Shown here one piece after another: positions 3,366 through 31,800 of a stretch of 36,735 nt of DNA. Numbering within the stretch: the stretch's first letter is position 1; every line of letters begins with the position of its first letter. Made by a program: the position numbers and the translations under genes. Under the pieces are notes generated by a model. That model was not told the origin of the DNA and made no database searches. It worked only from the letters and a program-made list of their open reading frames with translations. The DNA is from an uncultured Methanobrevibacter sp. (lineage in GTDB: Archaea > Methanobacteriota > Methanobacteria > Methanobacteriales > Methanobacteriaceae), in contig CADAAJ010000008.1 of NCBI GenBank assembly GCA_902785855.1, positions 1 through 36,735 on the forward strand, in the 5' to 3' direction.

Positions 3366-4223
3366 TTAAATTAAATTATGGGGAATATCATTTTTATTTC
3401 TTGGATATTTATTATTGGATAATGGTTTTCCTATCTTTTTAAGTCTGTTATCCAGTAGTTTTCGCCCATCTTCACTTGCACAGAATATTGGTACTTTTGT
3501 TCCATAATAATAAGGTTTGTATTTATCACAATATTGTGAAATAGCTTTTGATGAACATGCTGTTACAATATCTGTATTGTCAAATATCATTTTAACATCA
3601 TCAGAACTTGTTTTTGTTGTATGTGCTACGAAAATATAAACATTAATATCATAATATTTTGAATAATTTCTTATTTCTTCAATCATTGCTGATGGAAGTA
3701 TTGTTACTGCAATATTTTTATATCCTTTTTTTATTGCTAATTTCAATCCTTCCAGTTGATTTAATTCAGCAGTTTCAGGGTTTAAAACTGTACTGCCTTT
3801 TTGTTTGAGTTTTTCAATTACTTCTGGAATTGGTGTAGTGCTTATAAGGCCGGATACTCTTGCTCCAACACCCTGTACAACACGTGGATGGGTCATAATA
3901 ACTGTTCCTGCTCCGTCACATGCTCCAACAACACAGTCAATATTTCCCTGCTCCATGTTTGTTTTTAATATTTCAGAAATTCCAACAGTAATTGCATCAT
4001 CCATTTCTATTATTCTCTTTGATGTGCACATTCCAAAGTCTTTAATTCTGAAATTGATGTTTTTTTGTATAAATTCTTCATCCAGTTTTTTTATTCCATG
4101 CATTGCATGAAACATCGGACAGTATTCAACACCTACTTGAGGTCCTATTTCGGTTATTTTACCGTTTTTGATTACTACACGAACTTTTCCAAGTGCTTCT
4201 ATAACATGTTTGTCTTCTACCAT
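3366..4223 (-). CDS. Methanogenesis marker protein 8 (DUF2099)
   Basis: A protein of 285 residues matching what I know of putative methanogenesis marker protein 8, a family nearly confined to methanogens and without a proven reaction. Supporting segments are VEYCPMFHAMHGI near residue 33, FRIKDFGMCTS near 59, VVGACDGAGTVI near 99 and RVVQGVGARVSGL near 116. Several cysteines (YCP, GMC, GAC, TACSS, FCAS) could bind metal or a cofactor. The ATG at 4223 is preferred over the TTG at 4226 because of the AGGTGAT Shine-Dalgarno just upstream. It is the last gene of a three-gene operon after a TIR-like protein and a ThiS-like sulfur carrier, which hints at a sulfur-related or modification pathway. 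That hint is inference. Confidence 0.85.
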   Translation of the reverse strand: MVEDKHVIEALGKVRVVIKNGKITEIGPQVGVEYCPMFHAMHGIKKLDEEFIQKNINFRIKDFGMCTSKRIIEMDDAITVGISEILKTNMEQGNIDCVVGACDGAGTVIMTHPRVVQGVGARVSGLISTTPIPEVIEKLKQKGSTVLNPETAELNQLEGLKLAIKKGYKNIAVTILPSAMIEEIRNYSKYYDINVYIFVAHTTKTSSDDVKMIFDNTDIVTACSSKAISQYCDKYKPYYYGTKVPIFCASEDGRKLLDNRLKKIGKPLSNNKYPRNKNDIPHNLI

Positions 4224-4233
4224 CAAATCACCT

Positions 4234-4650
4234 TTACTGATTTTGTGTGCTGTTGCATGGTTTTATCCAGTCTTTTTTATTTACAAGAGTTTCTATTGCA
4301 TCAATTATGCAGTGAGGATTCCATCCAACTGCAGCATCTGCCTTATCTTCCAGTTCCTTTAAAATATATTCCATACCATAAGAGCGAACCAGAAGTACAG
4401 GAATATTAAATTCATCTGATTTTTCCAGTAAATATTCAAACAATTCCGGATTATAATGATAAAGACCAAATAAAAGTATTATTATGTCGGTGTCATTAAA
4501 TAATTCATCTGTTAGATCGTTTTCTAAAGTGTTGTACTCAATGTATGAAAAATCTTTTTGACTGTCAATTCTTTTTTTGTAAAAGTCGTATTGTTCTATT
4601 GGATCGTTTTTCTCTTTGGTTATAAGTATTTTGTAGACTTTTTCAGACAA
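4234..4650 (-). CDS. Small TIR-like / MTH538-like protein
   Basis: A soluble protein of 138 residues. Its second half, with a hydrophobic strand DIIILLFGLYHYN (about 53-65), a strand IPVLLVRSYG (about 82-91) and ADAAVGWNPHCIIDAI (about 102-117), resembles the DUF1863 family (MTH538; TIR-like, flavodoxin-like fold, the fold also seen in Thoeris ThsB). I do not see a clear NADase glutamate context, and no ThsA-like effector lies nearby, so a defence role is not supported. The start is the TTG at 4650, fixed by AGGTGAT four bases upstream. It sits 10 bp from the marker-8 ATG and 10 bp after the ThiS-like gene, so it belongs to that operon. Family call is moderate. Confidence 0.6.
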   Translation of the reverse strand: MSEKVYKILITKEKNDPIEQYDFYKKRIDSQKDFSYIEYNTLENDLTDELFNDTDIIILLFGLYHYNPELFEYLLEKSDEFNIPVLLVRSYGMEYILKELEDKADAAVGWNPHCIIDAIETLVNKKDWIKPCNSTQNQ

Positions 4651-4660
4651 ATTATCACCT

Positions 4661-4861
4661 TTATCCGCCGTAAATAATCTGTATTAATTGAATTTCATCA
4701 CTTTCATTAATTATACTTTCTTCTTGTGTAAGCTCACCGTTTTGCTTTGCAATGGTAGTTTGTGATGATAATTCAAGTTCATTTAACAAATCTTTTATTG
4801 TATAATTTTCTTTTAGTTTTCTTGTTTCATTAATGTCTCTATATTTTAAATTAAAACTCAA
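4661..4861 (-). CDS. ThiS/MoaD-like sulfur-carrier (ubiquitin-like) protein
   Basis: A tiny protein of 66 residues ending in Gly-Gly (IIYGG), with the beta-grasp pattern of ThiS/MoaD/SAMP proteins: YTIKDLLNELEL near the start of the first helix, then a QEESIINESDEIQLIQIIYGG tail-like region of which only the last 15 residues are diagnostic. In this family the C-terminal Gly is adenylated and carries sulfur as a thiocarboxylate, or is joined to protein lysines. I place the start at the TTG at 4861 because the GTG at 4870 lies inside the GGTGA Shine-Dalgarno; with GTG the protein would be 69 residues. It heads the operon with the TIR-like and marker-8 genes. No E1-like or YcaO gene is in this window. 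Confidence 0.8.
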   Translation of the reverse strand: MSFNLKYRDINETRKLKENYTIKDLLNELELSSQTTIAKQNGELTQEESIINESDEIQLIQIIYGG

Positions 4862-4986
4862 TTTTTTCACCTTTTGTTTAATCTATTTTTATAGGAGCAC
4901 TATAGTATATTAATTAACAATTGTTATATTATTTGAGAGTTAATATAAAACTTTCTATTTTACATTCTAAAAAAAAGAATTTTTAG

Positions 4987-5017
4987 ATAAATCAATGAAA
5001 AAATTGCATTGATTTAT
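4987..5017. terminator. Bidirectional hairpin terminator with 11-bp stem
   Basis: A perfect 11-bp inverted repeat, ATAAATCAATG at 4987-4997 and CATTGATTTAT at 5007-5017, with a 9-nt loop. On the minus strand it is followed by TTCTTTTTTTT, on the plus strand by two T-runs. It overlaps the stop codon of the relic at 5014-5073, so it was probably that gene's terminator. Confidence 0.6.
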
Positions 5018-5073
5018 TTTTTGTATTTTTTAAGAAAAATTACGCCAACAACAGCAGTTAAAATAATTGAAAT
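5014..5073 (-). pseudogene. Relic: C-terminal membrane anchor of a lost surface protein
   Basis: The minus strand encodes ISIILTAVVGVIFLKKYKK followed by TAA, preceded directly by an in-frame TAA, so only 19 codons survive. This is the layout of a C-terminal anchor: one hydrophobic helix and a basic tail. It closely resembles the last residues of the neighbouring repeat protein (ILIVVIAVVGGIAVYRRNK). The stop codon falls in a strong terminator hairpin, as expected for a former gene end. Upstream coding sequence could not be recovered. Reading it as a relic is inference from this short match. Confidence 0.4.
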
Positions 5074-5129
5074 TTAATAAAATATTTATTTTATTTTAAT
5101 TTGTTAATTTTTAATATGTCCAAAAAATC

Positions 5130-5283
5130 AAATTAACTATATTTTTTTAAATCAGGATTTAATATCTGCTATTTTATTCTAATTTTTTATTAAATAACTT
5201 ATTTTTTAATAAAACTCTATATTATTTATTATTTTATTATTTTAATATGCAAGTAAGCACTTGCATTCGAAAACTTTTATATA
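5130..5283 (+). repeat. Promoter cassette, copy 1
   Basis: First copy of a roughly 150-bp unit that recurs at 5880-6031. It begins AAATTAACTATA, has a degenerate terminator-like hairpin near 5153-5170, then TTATTAAATAACTT at 5187, the palindromic operator at 5248-5265 and the BRE/TATA at 5266-5283. From 5187 to 5283 it aligns with 5935-6031 at a constant offset of 748 bp without gaps; by hand I count about 79 of 97 identical positions. Confidence 0.75.
5248..5283 (+). promoter_or_regulatory. Palindromic operator plus BRE/TATA promoter of the repeat-protein gene
   Basis: TGCAAGT-AAGC-ACTTGCA (5248-5265) is a 7+4+7 perfect inverted repeat. It is followed at once by TTCGAAAA (BRE-like, 5266-5273) and TTTATATA (TATA box, 5276-5283). 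Transcription should start near 5306, giving a leader of about 65 nt. A regulator bound here would sit just upstream of TFB and could activate, or repress by blocking TFB. The half-site GTAAGT/GCAAGT resembles sites used by some HxlR, MarR or TetR-type regulators, but the protein is unknown. Confidence 0.7.
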
Positions 5284-5304
5284 GGGTGTATTTCATATAT
5301 TTAC

Positions 5305-5347
5305 TTGTGTGAGTCAAGTTGAATTTTACTGATTAACTTGTACACAA
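5305..5347 (+). promoter_or_regulatory. 5' leader hairpin before the repeat-protein gene
   Basis: TTGTGT (5305-5310) pairs with ACACAA (5342-5347), and CAAGTT (5315-5320) pairs with AACTTG (5335-5340), with a 14-nt loop and a small internal loop. It would form at the very 5' end of the predicted mRNA, 13 nt before the Shine-Dalgarno GAGGTGAT at 5361. It may protect the transcript or be a second DNA operator; neither is shown. Confidence 0.5.
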
Positions 5348-5373
5348 ATTACTGTTATTTGAGGTGATTAATA

Positions 5374-5808
5374 ATGGATCTTTCAAAAAAAATATTTGCT
5401 GTATTAGCAATACTTTGTATTGTTGCATCTGCTGGTGTAGTTTGCGCTAGTGAAGATGGTGATGGTGCATATGCTGGCAGTAATTATGATGATCGTGGCG
5501 GTTGGGCCGGTAGTAATTATGAAGACCATGGCGGATGGGCTGGAAGTAATTATCAAGATAATGGTGGTTGGGCTGGAAGCCAATACAATGAAACAGCTAA
5601 CTCTCAAAACCATACTGCAGCCGGTGCACCTGTTAATAGTACTGGTCATAATGTAACTGCAAATAAAACTGCTAATGTTACTAATACAACCAATAAAACT
5701 AATGCAACTTCCCCTTTCAATATGTTATCAACTGGTAATCCTATATTGATTTTAATTGTTGTAATTGCAGTTGTTGGTGGTATTGCAGTATATAGAAGAA
5801 ATAAATAA
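5374..5808 (+). CDS. Secreted, membrane-anchored protein with 11-residue WAGSNY repeats
   Basis: A surface protein of 144 residues that I cannot name. Residues 1-25 are a signal peptide (KKIFAVLAILCIVASAGVVCA, cleavage after CA). Residues 33-71 hold four tandem 11-residue repeats of the form (W/Y)AGSNYxDxGG, three of them starting with Trp. Residues 72-113 are an Asn/Thr-rich linker with about nine N-X-S/T sequons, so it is probably heavily N-glycosylated. Residues 122-140 are a single membrane helix, followed by the basic tail YRRNK. It would stand on the outer face of the membrane under or in the pseudomurein wall. The start has a strong GAGGTGAT Shine-Dalgarno. It has its own operator-bearing promoter and two terminators, so it is monocistronic. 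Copies of the promoter cassette flank it. Confidence 0.85.
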   Translation: MDLSKKIFAVLAILCIVASAGVVCASEDGDGAYAGSNYDDRGGWAGSNYEDHGGWAGSNYQDNGGWAGSQYNETANSQNHTAAGAPVNSTGHNVTANKTANVTNTTNKTNATSPFNMLSTGNPILILIVVIAVVGGIAVYRRNK

Positions 5809-5827
5809 ATTAAATTAACTATACTTT

Positions 5828-5855
5828 AAGCAGGGTTTTTATATCCTGCTTTTTT
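5828..5855 (+). terminator. Terminator hairpin, copy 1
   Basis: AAGCAGG (5828-5834) pairs perfectly with CCTGCTT (5845-5851), with a 10-nt loop, followed by a run of T to 5855. It lies 20 bp after the stop of the repeat-protein gene. Confidence 0.75.
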
Positions 5856-5896
5856 CTCCCATTTATTATAAAATAAATTAAATTAACCAAATTCAT

Positions 5897-5925
5897 AAGC
5901 GGGATTTTTATATCCTGCTTTTTTC
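5897..5925 (+). terminator. Terminator hairpin, copy 2
   Basis: AAGCGGGA (5897-5904) pairs with TCCTGCTT (5913-5920) through eight pairs including one G-U, followed by T residues. It is the duplicate of the hairpin at 5828 and would give a second chance to stop transcription before the next promoter. Confidence 0.65.
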
Positions 5926-5995
5926 TCCCATTTATTATTAAATAACTTATTTTTTTATAAAAATTCATATTTTCCTTTAGTTTATTATTTTATCC

Positions 5996-6031
5996 TGTAA
6001 GTAATTACTTACATTCGAAAAAGTTTATATA
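5996..6031 (+). promoter_or_regulatory. Palindromic operator plus BRE/TATA promoter of the zinc-ribbon gene
   Basis: TGTAAGTAATTACTTACA (5996-6013) is a perfect 18-bp palindrome, followed directly by TTCGAAAA (6014-6021) and TTTATATA (6024-6031), with the same spacing as at 5248-5283. Compared with that copy, positions 3 and 16 of the operator both changed (C/G to T/A), which keeps the symmetry. Predicted transcription start is near 6054. Confidence 0.75.
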
Positions 6032-6040
6032 CTAATTTTA

Positions 6041-6075
6041 ATAGATTAACACATAGGTGTAAATAGATTAATACA
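6041..6075 (+). repeat. 13-bp direct repeat at the predicted transcription start
   Basis: ATAGATTAACACA at 6041-6053 recurs as ATAGATTAATACA at 6063-6075, 22 bp apart, about two helical turns. It lies at and just downstream of the predicted start of the zinc-ribbon transcript, so it may be a second protein site. That use is inference. Confidence 0.4.
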
Positions 6076-6096
6076 CTGAATTGGTGGTGAGAAATC

Positions 6097-6276
6097 ATGA
6101 AAATGCATAAAATTTGTCCAAGATGTGGATCAAAAAATGTTGACTGGATTATCCCACAAAACTGGTCACAATGTGTCTGCCGGGATTGTGATTACACTGG
6201 TTCAATAATTGAAGGAAATGACGATTTGGCCAGTGAAATTCACAAATCATATATTGAATCTTTAAAAGAAGAATAA
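6097..6276 (+). CDS. Small zinc-ribbon protein (59 residues)
   Basis: Starts MKMHKICPRCGSKNVDWI and carries CPRC at residues 7-10 and CVCRDC at 26-31, a single zinc ribbon with the typical CxxC pairs and a GS-type knuckle. The tail is acidic (SEIHKSYIESLKEE). Such ribbons are common in archaeal transcription and metal-handling proteins; no specific function can be given. The ATG at 6097 is preceded by GGTGGTGAG, and the stop is 24 bp before the next gene, which has a GGAGGAG Shine-Dalgarno, so they form an operon. The operon is driven by the palindrome-bearing promoter at 5996-6031. A zinc, redox or DNA-binding role is possible. Confidence 0.8.
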   Translation: MKMHKICPRCGSKNVDWIIPQNWSQCVCRDCDYTGSIIEGNDDLASEIHKSYIESLKEE

Positions 6277-6300
6277 ACAATATTTGTTGGAGGAGATAAT

Positions 6301-7101
6301 ATGTTAGGATTAAACAATAATCAGTATGATGAAAGTATTAAAAATATTCCAAGTAATGAATCATCCTCCCTGATTTCAGTATTATTTGGAAAAAACAAGT
6401 GTAGAGATGTAAATATCTTATCACTTACAATACTTGATTTAATTAATAAAGATCAAATTAAATGCGATATAGATTTTAATGATTCATATAATGCAGGCAG
6501 GAAATTAACTCACCGGGACATGGAGGTTATGAAAAAAATAACTCTCAGACTGTCTAACAAAGGAGAGTTGAAAACTTCCGAAACACTAGCTATTAACCTG
6601 CTTAAAAACATGAATAAAAATAAAAAATTCAACTTAAAAGCTATGGCAAAACAAAGCAACAACACATCAATTGCCAATAAATTCGGTAATGATTTCAATG
6701 AATTTGTTAAAGCTTTTACTAATGAAAATGAATTTGACGGCAAAAATTATAAGGATATTCTGGAAAATGACAAATTAACAAACAGAGGAAAAGAACTTAA
6801 AAAAGAATGGAGAAATTTCCAGAATTATTTAAAATCAAATGATTTAACTAATCACTATCCTCCCCAATCTTTAGAGGAAAACTCAACACAAATATTGTAT
6901 AGTGCATCCTTTGACATTGAAAAAGATGCATTAAACATTAGACAGAACAATACTCAGTTAACTGATTTCATTGATAAAGACGGATATAAATTATTAAATA
7001 TGATATTTAATAATGCTTTGGATAATGTTACTGAAAAACGTAATGGGGATGGTGTATTTTATGGTGTAAATGAAAAATACACTATTCCTGGAGGAGGATA
7101 A
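6301..7101 (+). CDS. Soluble protein resembling the C-terminal part of DUF2207 proteins
   Basis: A hydrophilic protein of 266 residues without signal peptide or membrane helix. The segment CRDVNILSLTILDLINKDQI (about 34-53) and the later WRNFQNYLKSN-x-YPPQSL-x-YSASF region (about 171-200) resemble the cytoplasmic C-terminal part of DUF2207 membrane proteins, which carry a similar winged-helix-like core. Here the membrane part is missing, so this may be a stand-alone derivative. It ends in TIPGGG. The ATG at 6301 is preceded by GGAGGAG. It is the second gene of the zinc-ribbon operon, and its stop codon lies in a terminator hairpin. Function unknown; the family link is tentative. Confidence 0.7.
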   Translation: MLGLNNNQYDESIKNIPSNESSSLISVLFGKNKCRDVNILSLTILDLINKDQIKCDIDFNDSYNAGRKLTHRDMEVMKKITLRLSNKGELKTSETLAINLLKNMNKNKKFNLKAMAKQSNNTSIANKFGNDFNEFVKAFTNENEFDGKNYKDILENDKLTNRGKELKKEWRNFQNYLKSNDLTNHYPPQSLEENSTQILYSASFDIEKDALNIRQNNTQLTDFIDKDGYKLLNMIFNNALDNVTEKRNGDGVFYGVNEKYTIPGGG

Positions 7102-7118
7102 TCCTCCATTCTTTTTTT
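7093..7118 (+). terminator. Terminator overlapping the stop of the DUF2207-like gene
   Basis: GGAGGA (7093-7098) pairs with TCCTCC (7102-7107) across the TAA stop codon, followed by C and seven T residues (7111-7118). The Gly codons at the end of the protein form the left arm of the stem. Confidence 0.65.
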
Positions 7119-7376
7119 ATAGATTATTTCTTATAACATATAGTTGACTTTAAGACTTTTAGAAAAACATTGTAGATTTCAAAATTGCTTTTTTTAGATT
7201 CTACATTAAAATTTGTTTTCTTGTTTGGTTTTTAAGGTTTATTTTTTTTCTGATTTTTGTATTGTTTGTTAGAGATTTTTTTTTAGATAAATCCTAATAA
7301 ATGTTTAAAACCAAGTTTTAACATATTTGTGGTGGGGGTGTAATGATTAATAATTATGAATTATAAATTTTTTATT
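7108..7376. other. Intergenic region with leader-like mini-ORF
   Basis: AT-rich and T-run-rich sequence with no supported gene. A strong Shine-Dalgarno-like GGTGGGGGTG (7331-7340) is followed by a seven-codon frame (MINNYEL, ATG at 7343), just before the flavodoxin relic. It may be the former start region of that decayed gene. Confidence 0.4.
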
Positions 7377-7433
7377 ATGAATATAGTAGTTTTTAATGCA
7401 AGTCCAAGAAAAAGAATAAACAGTCAAATATGA
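7377..7433 (+). pseudogene. Relic: N-terminus of a flavodoxin-like NAD(P)H-FMN reductase
   Basis: The frame reads MNIVVFNASPRKRINSQI and then TGA. This is the characteristic first strand and phosphate-binding loop (VxFNxSPRKxxN) of NADPH-dependent FMN reductases and iron-sulfur flavoproteins of the flavodoxin-like superfamily, which are normally near 180-200 residues. Only 18 codons remain, and the next gene (DUF389) begins 13 bp later, so the rest was lost, probably by deletion. The TGAGGA at the end serves as part of the next gene's ribosome-binding region. Confidence 0.6.
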
Positions 7434-7446
7434 GGAAAATGATAAT

Positions 7447-8217
7447 ATGGATTTTAAACAACAAAACGAAACTATTAAAGAAAAAGTTAGAAAGGCTTTT
7501 TCATTAACTGAAGATTCAGCACCTCATGAAGAAATTCGTGCACGTTTACTTGATGGTGGACAGGTTACTGGTACTAATCTGTGTGTACTTATATGTGCAA
7601 TGATTATAGCATCAGTTGGTCTTAATATGAGTTCAACTGCAGTGATTATTGGTGCTATGCTTATTTCTCCCATAATGGGAAGTATTCTCGCCTCAGCATA
7701 TGGTAATGTATCTGCAGATTATTCACTTTTTCGTAATTTTATGATTGGTTTTGGAATACAGATTCTAATCAGTGTTACTGCTGCTTCAATTTACTTTTTC
7801 CTATCTCCAGTTAAAGAACCTACAGTGGAACTGCTTGCAAGAACATCTCCAACATTCTACGATGTATTAATCGCATTTTTTGGAGGGCTTGCAGGAATTA
7901 TTGGTCAAACTAGAATTGATAAAGCAAACACCGTTATTCCGGGAGTTGCAATTGCAACTGCTTTGATGCCACCATTATGTACCTGTGGTTATGCTATTGC
8001 AAATGCAAGATTGGACATGCTTTTAGGAGCAGGTTATCTTTTTATAATTAATGCTTATTTCATTTTCCTTGCAGCAAGTATTGGTTTAACTGTTTTAAAT
8101 GTTCCAAAAACTCGTGAATTAAGTGAAAATGAATGGAGAAAGCACCGTTTACGTATGGTTAGAAATACAATCATCATTGCAATACCTAGTATAATTGCAG
8201 TTTATGCAATGATTTAA
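7447..8217 (+). CDS. DUF389 family membrane protein
   Basis: A protein of 256 residues with about six membrane helices. The diagnostic block of the DUF389 (TIGR00341-like) family is seen at residues 38-78: TGTNLCVLICAMIIASVGL, then a second conserved stretch with AVIIGAMLISPIMG. A PGVAIATALMPPLCTCGYA block follows near 166. The first 35 residues are a hydrophilic cytoplasmic leader. No transport activity is established for this family to my knowledge. The ATG at 7447 follows TGAGGAAAATGAT. It is the only intact gene between the flavodoxin relic and the sodium symporter, 39 bp downstream, and may be co-transcribed with the latter. Confidence 0.85.
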   Translation: MDFKQQNETIKEKVRKAFSLTEDSAPHEEIRARLLDGGQVTGTNLCVLICAMIIASVGLNMSSTAVIIGAMLISPIMGSILASAYGNVSADYSLFRNFMIGFGIQILISVTAASIYFFLSPVKEPTVELLARTSPTFYDVLIAFFGGLAGIIGQTRIDKANTVIPGVAIATALMPPLCTCGYAIANARLDMLLGAGYLFIINAYFIFLAASIGLTVLNVPKTRELSENEWRKHRLRMVRNTIIIAIPSIIAVYAMI

Positions 8218-28842: not shown

Positions 28843-31800
28843 ATGATAAGGTGGAATAGATTATTTTTAGTTAGTATTTTTTTACTAACCATTTTTTCTA
28901 TTGGAGCTGTTTGTGCAGCTGATAATGTAACTGCAGATGACCTTGCAGTTGACAATAAAGGGGATGAATTAGCTATAGATTCATCTTCAAGTGATAATTT
29001 AAAAACCAATGGTGAGGATATTGCTGTTGGTAATAATGTAAACAGTAGTGGAAATTCAAAACTTTCTTTAAGTGGTAATGAGGTTTTATCAGACCCAGTC
29101 AATCCAAAATATACAATTGATGTTGACCTTCCGGAAGCATCATCTGGAAGATATAATCTTCAATGGGGTCAGTCCATTAAAATTCATGGTCTTTATGAAA
29201 ATGCAACAGGTAATGTAACAGTTACTTTTGCAGATGAAACATATACCTGTTTTTTAGATAAGGGTGCTTTTGATTTAGAAATTACAAAATATAAAAAAAT
29301 TTCAAACGGTCAAAATCTTGTTGTTAAATATAATGGGGACAGTAACTTTAAACCAGCATCAAAAACTTTATATATTAATGTTAAACTTGATGATGTTGTA
29401 GCTAATGATGCTAATTATGGACAAATTGCATTTATTGATGTTAATTTATATAACGCAACAGGTAATGTTACTTTTACATATAATGGTAGAAATTATACTG
29501 GTAAACTTGAAAATGGTAGATTCATTCAGGAATTTACAAATTATACATTAGGTAAAAATAATGTAGAATTTTATTATTCTGGTGATGATAATTACAATCC
29601 TATCTCTAAAAAATTATCATTTACAGTAAATGCAAACATTGATGAACCAACAATATACAATTTACAACCTGCAATAATTAATGCATATTTAGGTGATGCA
29701 ACAGGTAAAGTTAATTTCACATACAATGGTCAAACATATGTTGTTGATATTAAAAATGGTATTGCATCTCATGAATTTACAAATTATGAAATTGGAGAAA
29801 ATACTGTTGAGGTAAAGTACTCAGGGGATTCAAATTTCAATCCGTTTACAAAAGAAATCAAATTTACTGTTTTAGATAAACAGGATTCAGAAATATACGC
29901 TGGTGTTTATCAGAATAATGGTGTAAATGTTGTATCAGTTTATATTCCTTATTCAAATGGAACTGTTAATGTAACTATTAATGGTAAACAGCATGTTTTG
30001 GATTTGGTTGATTGTTTGGCATTATATCCTATAAGTGCTAGTGATGATATTAAAAATATTAAAGTAGTATATGCTGGAAATGAAAGATTAAATGCCGGTA
30101 AAACTTCCACATTTTTAAAATTAAATAATGTGGTAAATGCTGATTCTTGGAAATATTATTTTAATCAAAATAATATGGGTAAATTATTTGATTTCATTCC
30201 TGAAGGAATCACTCTTGATTTCCAGGGAGAAATTATTAATTATAATGATGATCCTAAATTCCAATGTTTTATTGATATTTCAAAACCGGTTAATGTAATT
30301 TCATCTACTAAAGATGCATACATTGATTTAAACACTCTTGCAGGTTCTCTTTTAGGTGAAAATCCGGGAAGTAGATTTATTGTTTCTTATGGAGGGTCCG
30401 GTTCTAATATATCTGGAATTTATTTGCATAATACTCAATTATGGATATCAAATACTTCTCATGTTGTTTTTGATAATATTAGTGTAGTCGTTGAAGATCA
30501 AAGAGTTGGTTCAGGTGTAGGTGCTACCTCTGTTAGAGATAATTCCTCTTATGTATTAATTAAAAACAGTTATTTCTATACAAGAAATAATGGTGGTTCA
30601 ACAACTTTCACATTTTCCTGGGCAAATTACTGTACATTTGACAATAATATTGTTAAAGCTGAAGGTGATGTAGGTAATTTACTTTACTTAAATGTATATA
30701 ATATTGCGGGTATGCCGGTAATTACAGGACCTGTAAATTCATACAATAAATTTACAAATAATATACTTTATGGAAAAGAAGGAAGTGCAATTTCTGTTGG
30801 AATTATGGTAGAAGGTATATATAATATTATTGAAAATAATACATTGAATAAATGTTCTATTGGTAATTCATACGGTTGTGTAAATCCACATGATAACTAT
30901 TATATTGGAAATGTATTAATGGAAGGTTCATCTTTAACAGCACAGCCTAATTCCATATTATACAATAACTTTGTTCCTGGAACTTTTAACACAGGTATTA
31001 ATGCAACTGTTTATAATAATACTGTTTTTAAAGCAATGACAGTTGGTGCTGGAAGTGAAGTTTATAACAATAATGTAGGTGGATTTACATTAAGCGGTGC
31101 TGGAAGCAGTATTCATGACAATACTGTAAATGGTATTACTAAAATTTCTCAGGCTAATATTAATGTATATAACAATAATTTTATTGGAGATAATGCAATT
31201 CAATTTTCACATGCAAATGCTAAAAATGTAACCTTTAAAAATAATAATGTTTTAGGTTATATTGAATTTACAGCAAATGCTAAAAATAATACTATTGCAA
31301 ATAACACTATTGTAACTTCACAGGATTATGCAGTTAATTTAAAAGATAATAAGGATACAAATTGTGATGTTGTAGATAATATTTTATCAAGTAATGGTAA
31401 ATATGGTAATACAGCTGTAAATCATGCTGAAGATGAAACTCTTGTTGTTGATAATTACCAAAATGCAGTTGCAACTATTAGTGTTGATGTAAATGTTAAA
31501 AATGCTAAAGTTGGTGAAACTGTTGTATTTAGTGTAGTTACTAATGAAACTTCAATTTCTTCTGCTACAATTATTGTTGGAACCAAAACCTATAATGTTC
31601 CTCTTTTAAATGGAAAAGGTTCTATTAGTGTAAATGATTTATTGGCTGGTGAGTATGATGTTATTGTCATATCAAATGATAATACATTTTCCGCTAGAAA
31701 TACAACTAAATTGAATGTAACCAAATATGCTGCTCCAAAAATTGTAGTTGAAATACCTAAAATCACTCAGGGGTATGATGCATATATTACTGTAAAAATT

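Follow-up and report, generated by a model that had tools for sequence, protein, structure and literature searches.

Two direct repeats flank a small surface-protein gene in the DNA analysed here, a 36,735-nucleotide stretch from an uncultured Methanobrevibacter sp. (the window). We consider it probable that both repeats derive from one regulon promoter module and have since diverged, that a TetR-family protein most likely binds the operator in this module and switches surface genes, and that the gene behind the first copy came to its place by duplication of a whole unit. This reading was drawn from sequence comparison, both within the window and across related genomes.

Results

Two copies of one cassette flank a surface-protein gene

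The region around the two cassette copies contains the following features.

5014–5073, minus strand: probable remnant of an anchored surface-protein gene, namely its 3' end (ISIILTAVVGVIFLKKYKK*), judged from the translation
5130–5186, plus strand: decayed terminator element (T0) upstream of copy 1, a member of repeat family D3 with 67% identity to the reference copy and no stable hairpin
5187–5247, plus strand: AT-rich spacer of copy 1, held in common with copy 2 (z 9.4) and its best match among 203 upstream 80-mers
5248–5283, plus strand: copy 1 operator palindrome TGCAAGTAAGCACTTGCA, BRE TTCGAAAA, CT and TATA TTTATATA, with 0 mismatches to the genus-wide pattern
5374–5808, plus strand: open reading frame of a 144-aa surface protein with a signal peptide, GGWAGSNY-type repeats and a C-terminal STGNP plus transmembrane anchor (features recognised by eye)
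5828–5860, plus strand: terminator-like hairpin with a T tract and CTCCC behind it (T1; −12.3 kcal/mol, z −4.5)
5897–5929, plus strand: second terminator-like hairpin with T tract and CTCCC (T2; −12.2 kcal/mol, z −4.3), a tandem copy of T1
5935–5995, plus strand: AT-rich spacer of copy 2, placed by alignment with the copy 1 spacer
5996–6031, plus strand: copy 2 operator palindrome TGTAAGTAATTACTTACA, BRE TTCGAAAA, AG and TATA TTTATATA, with 0 mismatches to the genus-wide pattern
6097–6276, plus strand: 59-aa zinc-ribbon-like protein, whose gene opens the downstream operon (weak zinc-ribbon matches below the Pfam cut-offs)
6301–7101, plus strand: 266-aa protein with a DUF2207_C domain (PF20990, E 3e-14)

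The original prediction held that 5187–5283 and 5935–6031 align without gaps at an offset of 748 bp, with about 79 of 97 positions identical. This count was exact, and the pair ranked first among all ungapped 97-mer pairs in the whole window at offsets of at least 100 bp; the runner-up (70/97) lies inside repeats at 29421. Dinucleotide shuffles (n = 5,000) reached at most 54 identical positions. Extending the alignment with gaps back to 5130 and 5880 gave 120 identical positions among 150 aligned, 6 gap positions and a score of 192, compared to a mean of 80, an SD of 8.5 and a maximum of 118 in 2,000 shuffles. The repeat is real, with an identity well above that of the shuffles. Their longest perfect run in common measures 21 bp.

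A palindrome and a BRE/TATA pair at equal spacing, likewise claimed for both copies, were also found. The 18-bp palindrome occupies 5248–5265 in copy 1 and 5996–6013 in copy 2; it is followed by the BRE TTCGAAAA at 5266–5273 and 6014–6021 and by the TATA box TTTATATA at 5276–5283 and 6024–6031, so that both copies end with TGYAAGTNNNNACTTRCA-TTCGAAAA-NN-TTTATAT.

Two promoters of the same regulon could in principle come to resemble each other through common requirements of operator and core together with chance similarity of AT-rich DNA. In line with this, the same genome holds promoters that have operator, BRE and TATA and unmatched upstream parts, as seen when one window copy (C8a) is compared to the sites C60, C105 and C24. 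The likeness of the window pair (C8a and C8b), however, extends through some 60 bp of the spacer (z 9.4 relative to shuffles) and also runs back into the terminator-derived stretch. Moreover, among the 203 upstream 80-mers the two copies are each other's best match with a score of 99, compared to next-best scores of 89 for copy 1 and 78 for copy 2. Convergence is therefore highly improbable, and we read the pair as copies of one ancestral cassette. Within the pair, sharing is limited to the cassette and does not reach the leaders (57.5%) or the genes. An upstream spacer common to the genome's sites in general was ruled out, as only C8a–C8b and C60–C91 (z 6.9) match clearly; C8b–C36 gave a z of 3.4.

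The cassette core recurs across the genus with fixed spacing

In the window's own genome, the 31-base core was found at 8 sites with at most 3 mismatches and at none with the reversed control. The BRE–TATA part TTCGAAAANNTTTATAT occurs three times as an exact match, always behind the palindrome (once with one mismatch); when one mismatch was allowed, it gave 13 matches, most of them without a palindrome, and 2 control matches. A loose palindrome pattern with 3 mismatches performed no better than its control (326 vs 398 per strand), and tighter patterns were therefore used. A search of other Methanobrevibacter genomes for the cassette, as the prediction had proposed, located the core at up to 2 mismatches in 45 of 60 genus genomes, own genome included, and none in the reversed control. 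The exact palindrome alone was present in 42 of the 60, with a single control match, in G037. When one genome per species was scanned for the exact module (84,980 species), 109 stretches were obtained; among the matches listed (80 of the 109), 79 carried a Methanobrevibacter or Methanosphaera title, and the remaining one was called 'uncultured bacterium'. The exact module had no match in IMG/VR, which leaves a viral origin without support.

The spacing was determined on loci fetched via proteins alone (TetR, surface protein, DUF2207_C), which avoids choosing sites by their TATA box. In 28 of the 32 distinct exact palindromes in this set, a TATA-like box follows at exactly 10 bp; the other four comprise two sequence variants at the same 10-bp spacing and two genuine departures from it, among which is the TetR promoter of G017. 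The palindrome thus stands directly upstream of the BRE at a fixed distance. A second count on 80 exact palindromes, covering part of the rows and not used for the spacing claim, gave 65 at 10 bp and one each at 9 and 8 bp. Three of these 80 were without a TATA match, and for ten no BRE was matched on the strand displayed; inspection by eye showed that four of the ten keep the spacing with a variant BRE and that five have the promoter on the other strand. The predicted reading of the repeats as promoter–operator cassettes is supported. The cassette is not private to the gene in the window and is apparently a regulon promoter module of Methanobrevibacter and Methanosphaera.

Secreted proteins are enriched behind the module

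The gene between the repeats, predicted to encode a surface protein, is indeed a 144-aa reading frame with signal peptide and anchor. A scan of contigs with short peptides yielded no relatives of this protein; a whole-genome search at E 0.001 did and placed homologues in 28 of 60 genomes, counting the window's own. A site with at most 6 mismatches lies upstream in 20 of the 26 homologue loci parsed out of 30, own locus included, a count that covers matches with loci and not all matches of the 144-aa protein.

More generally, 81 of 90 genes directly downstream of a site appeared signal-peptide-like, compared to 71 of 501 background ORFs in the same loci, the latter being mechanical ORFs rather than curated genes. 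At an equal floor of 150 aa the ratio was 51/55 against 71/501. Within the final 45 residues, 33 of the 90 downstream genes and 2 of the 501 other ORFs had a TGNP-type motif. Some large secreted proteins sit behind the promoter, and many targets are small (about 130–160 aa) with a TGNP-type C-terminal anchor. In total, 195 distinct sites were gathered, 63 of which (56 + 7) have no clear ORF of at least 90 aa nearby; these class counts were made with regular expressions and are only approximate, and copy 1 of the window was put in the zinc-ribbon class because the zinc-ribbon gene lies within 1.5 kb.

Individual sites showed further peculiarities. Downstream of site G015:C23 (L104, minus strand, site at 6214) we observed a series of tiny repeated genes, each preceded by a ribosome-binding site, for the 17-aa peptide MSCLEETIKVLKEFESF. 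The sites C60 (L092, ~4300–4562) and C91 (L030, ~1463–1650) of the window's own genome, which lack a clear gene and are the second pair alike upstream, have a leader of about 100 nt in common (GAAAGATGAATTGTGTAAT...GATAAATCTTAT...AGGAGGCATT).

Copy 2 precedes an operon that carries the module in other species, and copy 1 is probably the arrival

The prediction had staked itself on copies of the cassette at comparable loci in related genomes. Such copies exist: the cassette precedes the orthologous DUF2207_C operon at up to 4 mismatches in 13 of 20 loci, own included. Of the remaining seven, six have no site and one a degenerate site. In the relatives, the surface gene that lies between the two cassettes was not found upstream of this operon in the ORF listing, which covers the loci in stored orientation only. 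Since the relatives' operon thus has the site of copy 2 and that gene was not seen there, copy 1 with its surface gene looks like the arrival beside copy 2.

The window resembles a worn tandem array

Each copy had been predicted to hold a hairpin. This holds for copy 2, which is preceded by two strongly folded stretches, 5822–5862 (−12.3 kcal/mol, z −4.5) and 5890–5932 (−12.2 kcal/mol, z −4.3), but not for copy 1, where the stretch 5140–5186 has no stable hairpin (−3.8 kcal/mol, z −1.2, little better than shuffles). T1 and T2 form a tandem repeat with 93% identity over the 54-nt reference copy. A T run followed by CTCCC occurred within 90 bp of the stop codon in 11 of 90 regulon genes and in 0 of 490 other ORFs. 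Besides T1 and T2, the 3' element of hairpin, T tract and CTCCC was noted at L105, L110, L125, L141, L145, L149 and L169. Its CTCCC tail resembles the anti-Shine–Dalgarno sequence. Upstream of T0, the probable gene tail at 5014–5073 on the reverse strand contains no ORF of at least 60 aa. The worn T0, the doubled T1/T2 and this gene tail fit a worn array.

That such units are amplified in the course of evolution, as the prediction had envisaged, is supported by relatives. G028 carries three tandem units of cassette, gene and terminator, with gene parts that are 96.6% (units 1 and 2), 82.3% and 81.5% identical; the gene parts of duplicated units in G007 are 83.4% identical, and units without an ORF are duplicated in G039, G042 and G015. 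Surface genes with a cassette on both sides numbered five in the loci examined: the one in the window, three in G028 and one in G007. A double-flanked surface gene is therefore not unique to the window. What stands in the window therefore resembles the worn remains of a tandem [cassette–gene–terminator] array.

An additional unit in G007 (site G007:C36; L105, minus strand, site at 3400) contains the apparent start and end of a surface gene with most of the middle gone. Lying gutted beside two intact units, it looks like a decayed array member.

The repeats might instead have been kept as a substrate for recombination, serving deletion or amplification of the 748-bp unit as a device to vary one surface protein. 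Direct repeats do stand on both sides of the gene, the four double-flanked genes of the relatives repeat this arrangement, the near-identity of the gene parts of units 1 and 2 in G028 is in keeping with it, and the worn and doubled terminators suggest past turnover of units. However, the two copies in the window are merely 81% identical with a longest perfect run of only 21 bp, which makes frequent recombination between them doubtful. In addition, no second cassette was found within 700 bp downstream in the 25 relatives' loci parsed for homologues of the 144-aa protein, and most homologues are thus not repeat-flanked. Taken together, a repeat pair maintained for this purpose appears quite unlikely, and we favour a worn array whose units were once copied in tandem.

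Some sites appear to drive units without an ORF

At 20 of the 195 sites, a T-rich CTCCC end follows within 330 bp with no ORF of 60 aa in between. Units of this kind, about 115–140 nt in length, were seen at L093:363–539 (C117 of the own genome), L102, L108, L134, L148 and L315. They have three predicted hairpins, an SD-like GTGGTGGTGAG and the CTCCC end. An RNA model (R1), built from nine close sequences and giving rough E-values, matched 12 places in 5 of 60 genomes, C117 of the own genome included, and by eye the module lies upstream of 10 of the 12. In the terminator helix, 7 of 9 pairs change on both sides among 13 distinct rows, compared to at most 2 of 18 in slid controls; the alignment was fitted to R1, so that this result leans towards the model. 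The other two helices of R1 had no two-sided pair changes. Rfam returned nothing for 4800–7500 of the window and nothing at the gathering score in six site loci. As at least one of the 20, the unit at L105 in G007, resembles a gutted surface gene, units without an ORF can arise by decay.

Tracts of about 10–11 C were observed in some units (L093 near 500, C117 of the own genome; L103), one of them inside the terminator loop; these are possible slippage sites.

A TetR-family protein is the candidate regulator

The candidate reader of the palindrome has an N-terminal TetR DNA-binding domain (PF00440, E 4e-10, 39.8 bits against a cut-off of 24). In the window's own genome its gene lies on contig C60, about 1.2 kb from a cassette site. 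With all matches counted, TetR was found in 35 of 45 site-bearing and 4 of 15 site-less genomes (Fisher 0.001). Leaving out five weak or partial matches, a choice made after seeing them, changed this to 34/45 and 0/15 (Fisher 1.5e-7); both counts ignore shared ancestry. Of 33 TetR loci, 8 had the exact palindrome no more than about 1.5 kb away, where 0.16 palindromes were expected from density, and 14 had it when one mismatch was allowed. None occurred in 19 control loci, whose DNA amounts to roughly half that of the TetR loci. Conversely, 173 loci selected for their sites (1.17 Mb, partly overlapping) contained 13 distinct TetR sequences, compared to 0 in 33 control loci (0.1 Mb).

Full-length, more distant TetR proteins (39–42% identical) are encoded in G010, G017 and G033, which are genomes without module sites. 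There, the palindrome lies between a TATA-like box and the TetR ATG, with one mismatch in G010 and G033, which is a repressor-like position. In 29 loci parsed of 30, own genome included, no palindrome was found within 110 bp upstream of TetR. The TetR promoters of G010 and G033 (L288, L289) also display overlapping half-sites TGTAAGTAAGYACTTACTTACA immediately ahead of the ATG, an arrangement that might accommodate two dimers.

It is also conceivable that another DNA-binding protein reads the palindrome and that the TetR gene, instead of being the master, is one of its targets or merely adjacent to sites. A TetR match at 1e-10 is absent in 10 of the 45 site-bearing genomes. For five site-bearing genomes even a profile search found none: G006 (99% complete, 9 sites), G035, G043, G045 and G052. 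In G019, G022, G025, G027, G030 and G040 it gave weak matches only. The four Methanosphaera genomes with sites fall in line with this, as two have no TetR match, one has a 31-residue match at a contig end and one a weak match. On the other hand, TetR was the sole DNA-binding family that inspection by eye picked out of the recurrent protein clusters around sites (12 loci), and in the three distant full-length loci examined the palindrome sits in TetR's own promoter. A different reader is for these reasons unlikely, and TetR remains our preferred candidate. The best solved-structure match of its profile was 3whb, named a fatty acid metabolism regulator; with the FadR equivalog model NF053878 it scored 38.7 bits, below the cut-off of 200.

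Discussion

Our findings suggest a mechanism in which the TetR-family protein, encoded on C60 in the window's own genome, would bind the 18-bp operator abutting BRE and TATA, a ligand would release or engage it, and a set of secreted and cell-wall proteins would be switched together. In the window, the surface gene and the zinc-ribbon operon would respond together, each from its own cassette copy. Copy 2 would drive the zinc-ribbon/DUF2207_C operon, where the module is found in other species too. The surface gene probably reached the side of copy 2 by tandem duplication of a [cassette–gene–terminator] unit, and a later loss of units would explain why T0 is worn, why T1/T2 is doubled and why a gene remnant lies at 5014–5073. 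Visible in the sequence are the module with its spacing and targets, the linkage to TetR and, in three genomes, a palindrome at the promoter of TetR itself.

The regulator could activate by assisting TBP/TFB or repress by keeping TFB off the promoter, and we judge the two to be about equally likely. The fixed spacing favours contact with TBP/TFB and hence activation. Repression by blocking TFB is favoured by the strong-looking BRE and TATA and by the habits of TetR proteins.

Two known archaeal proteins, GvpE and TFB-RF1, offer a comparison; the GvpE site is also palindromic, and to our knowledge neither protein belongs to the TetR family. According to the sections of the sources covered here, most archaeal activators have their sites upstream of BRE/TATA, and a regulator that binds inside the promoter acts as a repressor (PMC5937170). 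GvpE of haloarchaea depends on a 20-nt element located upstream of BRE and TATA (PMC8241225), and the site of TFB-RF1 in Pyrococcus is a palindrome with a short centre, at targets with weak BREs (PMC5937170). The cassette palindrome resembles these sites in standing directly upstream of BRE and TATA. In contrast to the TFB-RF1 targets as described there, BRE and TATA look strong here, and repression is thus plausible as well.

FadR of Sulfolobus acidocaldarius is an archaeal TetR protein with a 16-bp semi-palindromic operator and four sites that represses one fatty-acid gene cluster; its autoregulatory site lies just downstream of its own start site and the other sites at least 130 bp upstream (PMC6449355, sections covered). 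As far as that description goes, our system is similar in combining TetR with an operator of similar length (18 bp) and, in G010, G017 and G033, with a site in the regulator's own promoter. It differs in having many dispersed sites, with a single fixed position next to the BRE, and in targeting surface proteins.

These findings bear on how gut methanogens control the proteins they present to hosts and to partner microbes. The adhesin-like proteins of Methanobrevibacter are described as large secreted, wall-anchored families, six members of which were upregulated in co-culture (PMC2812497, main text). Some large secreted proteins behind the cassette promoter are like these, whereas many of its targets are, unlike them, small and carry the TGNP-type anchor. 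The words 'promoter' and 'transcriptional regulator' are absent from that main text, and control of surface genes of this kind is not named in the sections covered of PMC2812497 and PMC13135261, both on these organisms. In the open full-text literature, outside of which most subscription journals lie, no such Methanobrevibacter motif was among the matches listed, and exact motif strings returned none. Operators beside a BRE and TetR regulons are already known kinds. The operator found here, a surface-protein regulon and its members without an ORF are without precedent among the open-literature matches listed.

The analysis yields a defined operator, a short list of targets per genome and a named candidate regulator. 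More tentatively, and with considerable doubt, one TetR-type switch might set the coat of rumen and gut methanogens, with the ORF-less RNAs acting as translation decoys and tandem units diversifying the coat. If true, the regulon would consist of secreted proteins, the zinc-ribbon/DUF2207_C operon and ORF-less RNAs with a common promoter, an SD-like leader and a hairpin–CUCCC end. The findings further suggest that surface-gene families grow as promoter–gene–terminator units copied in tandem.
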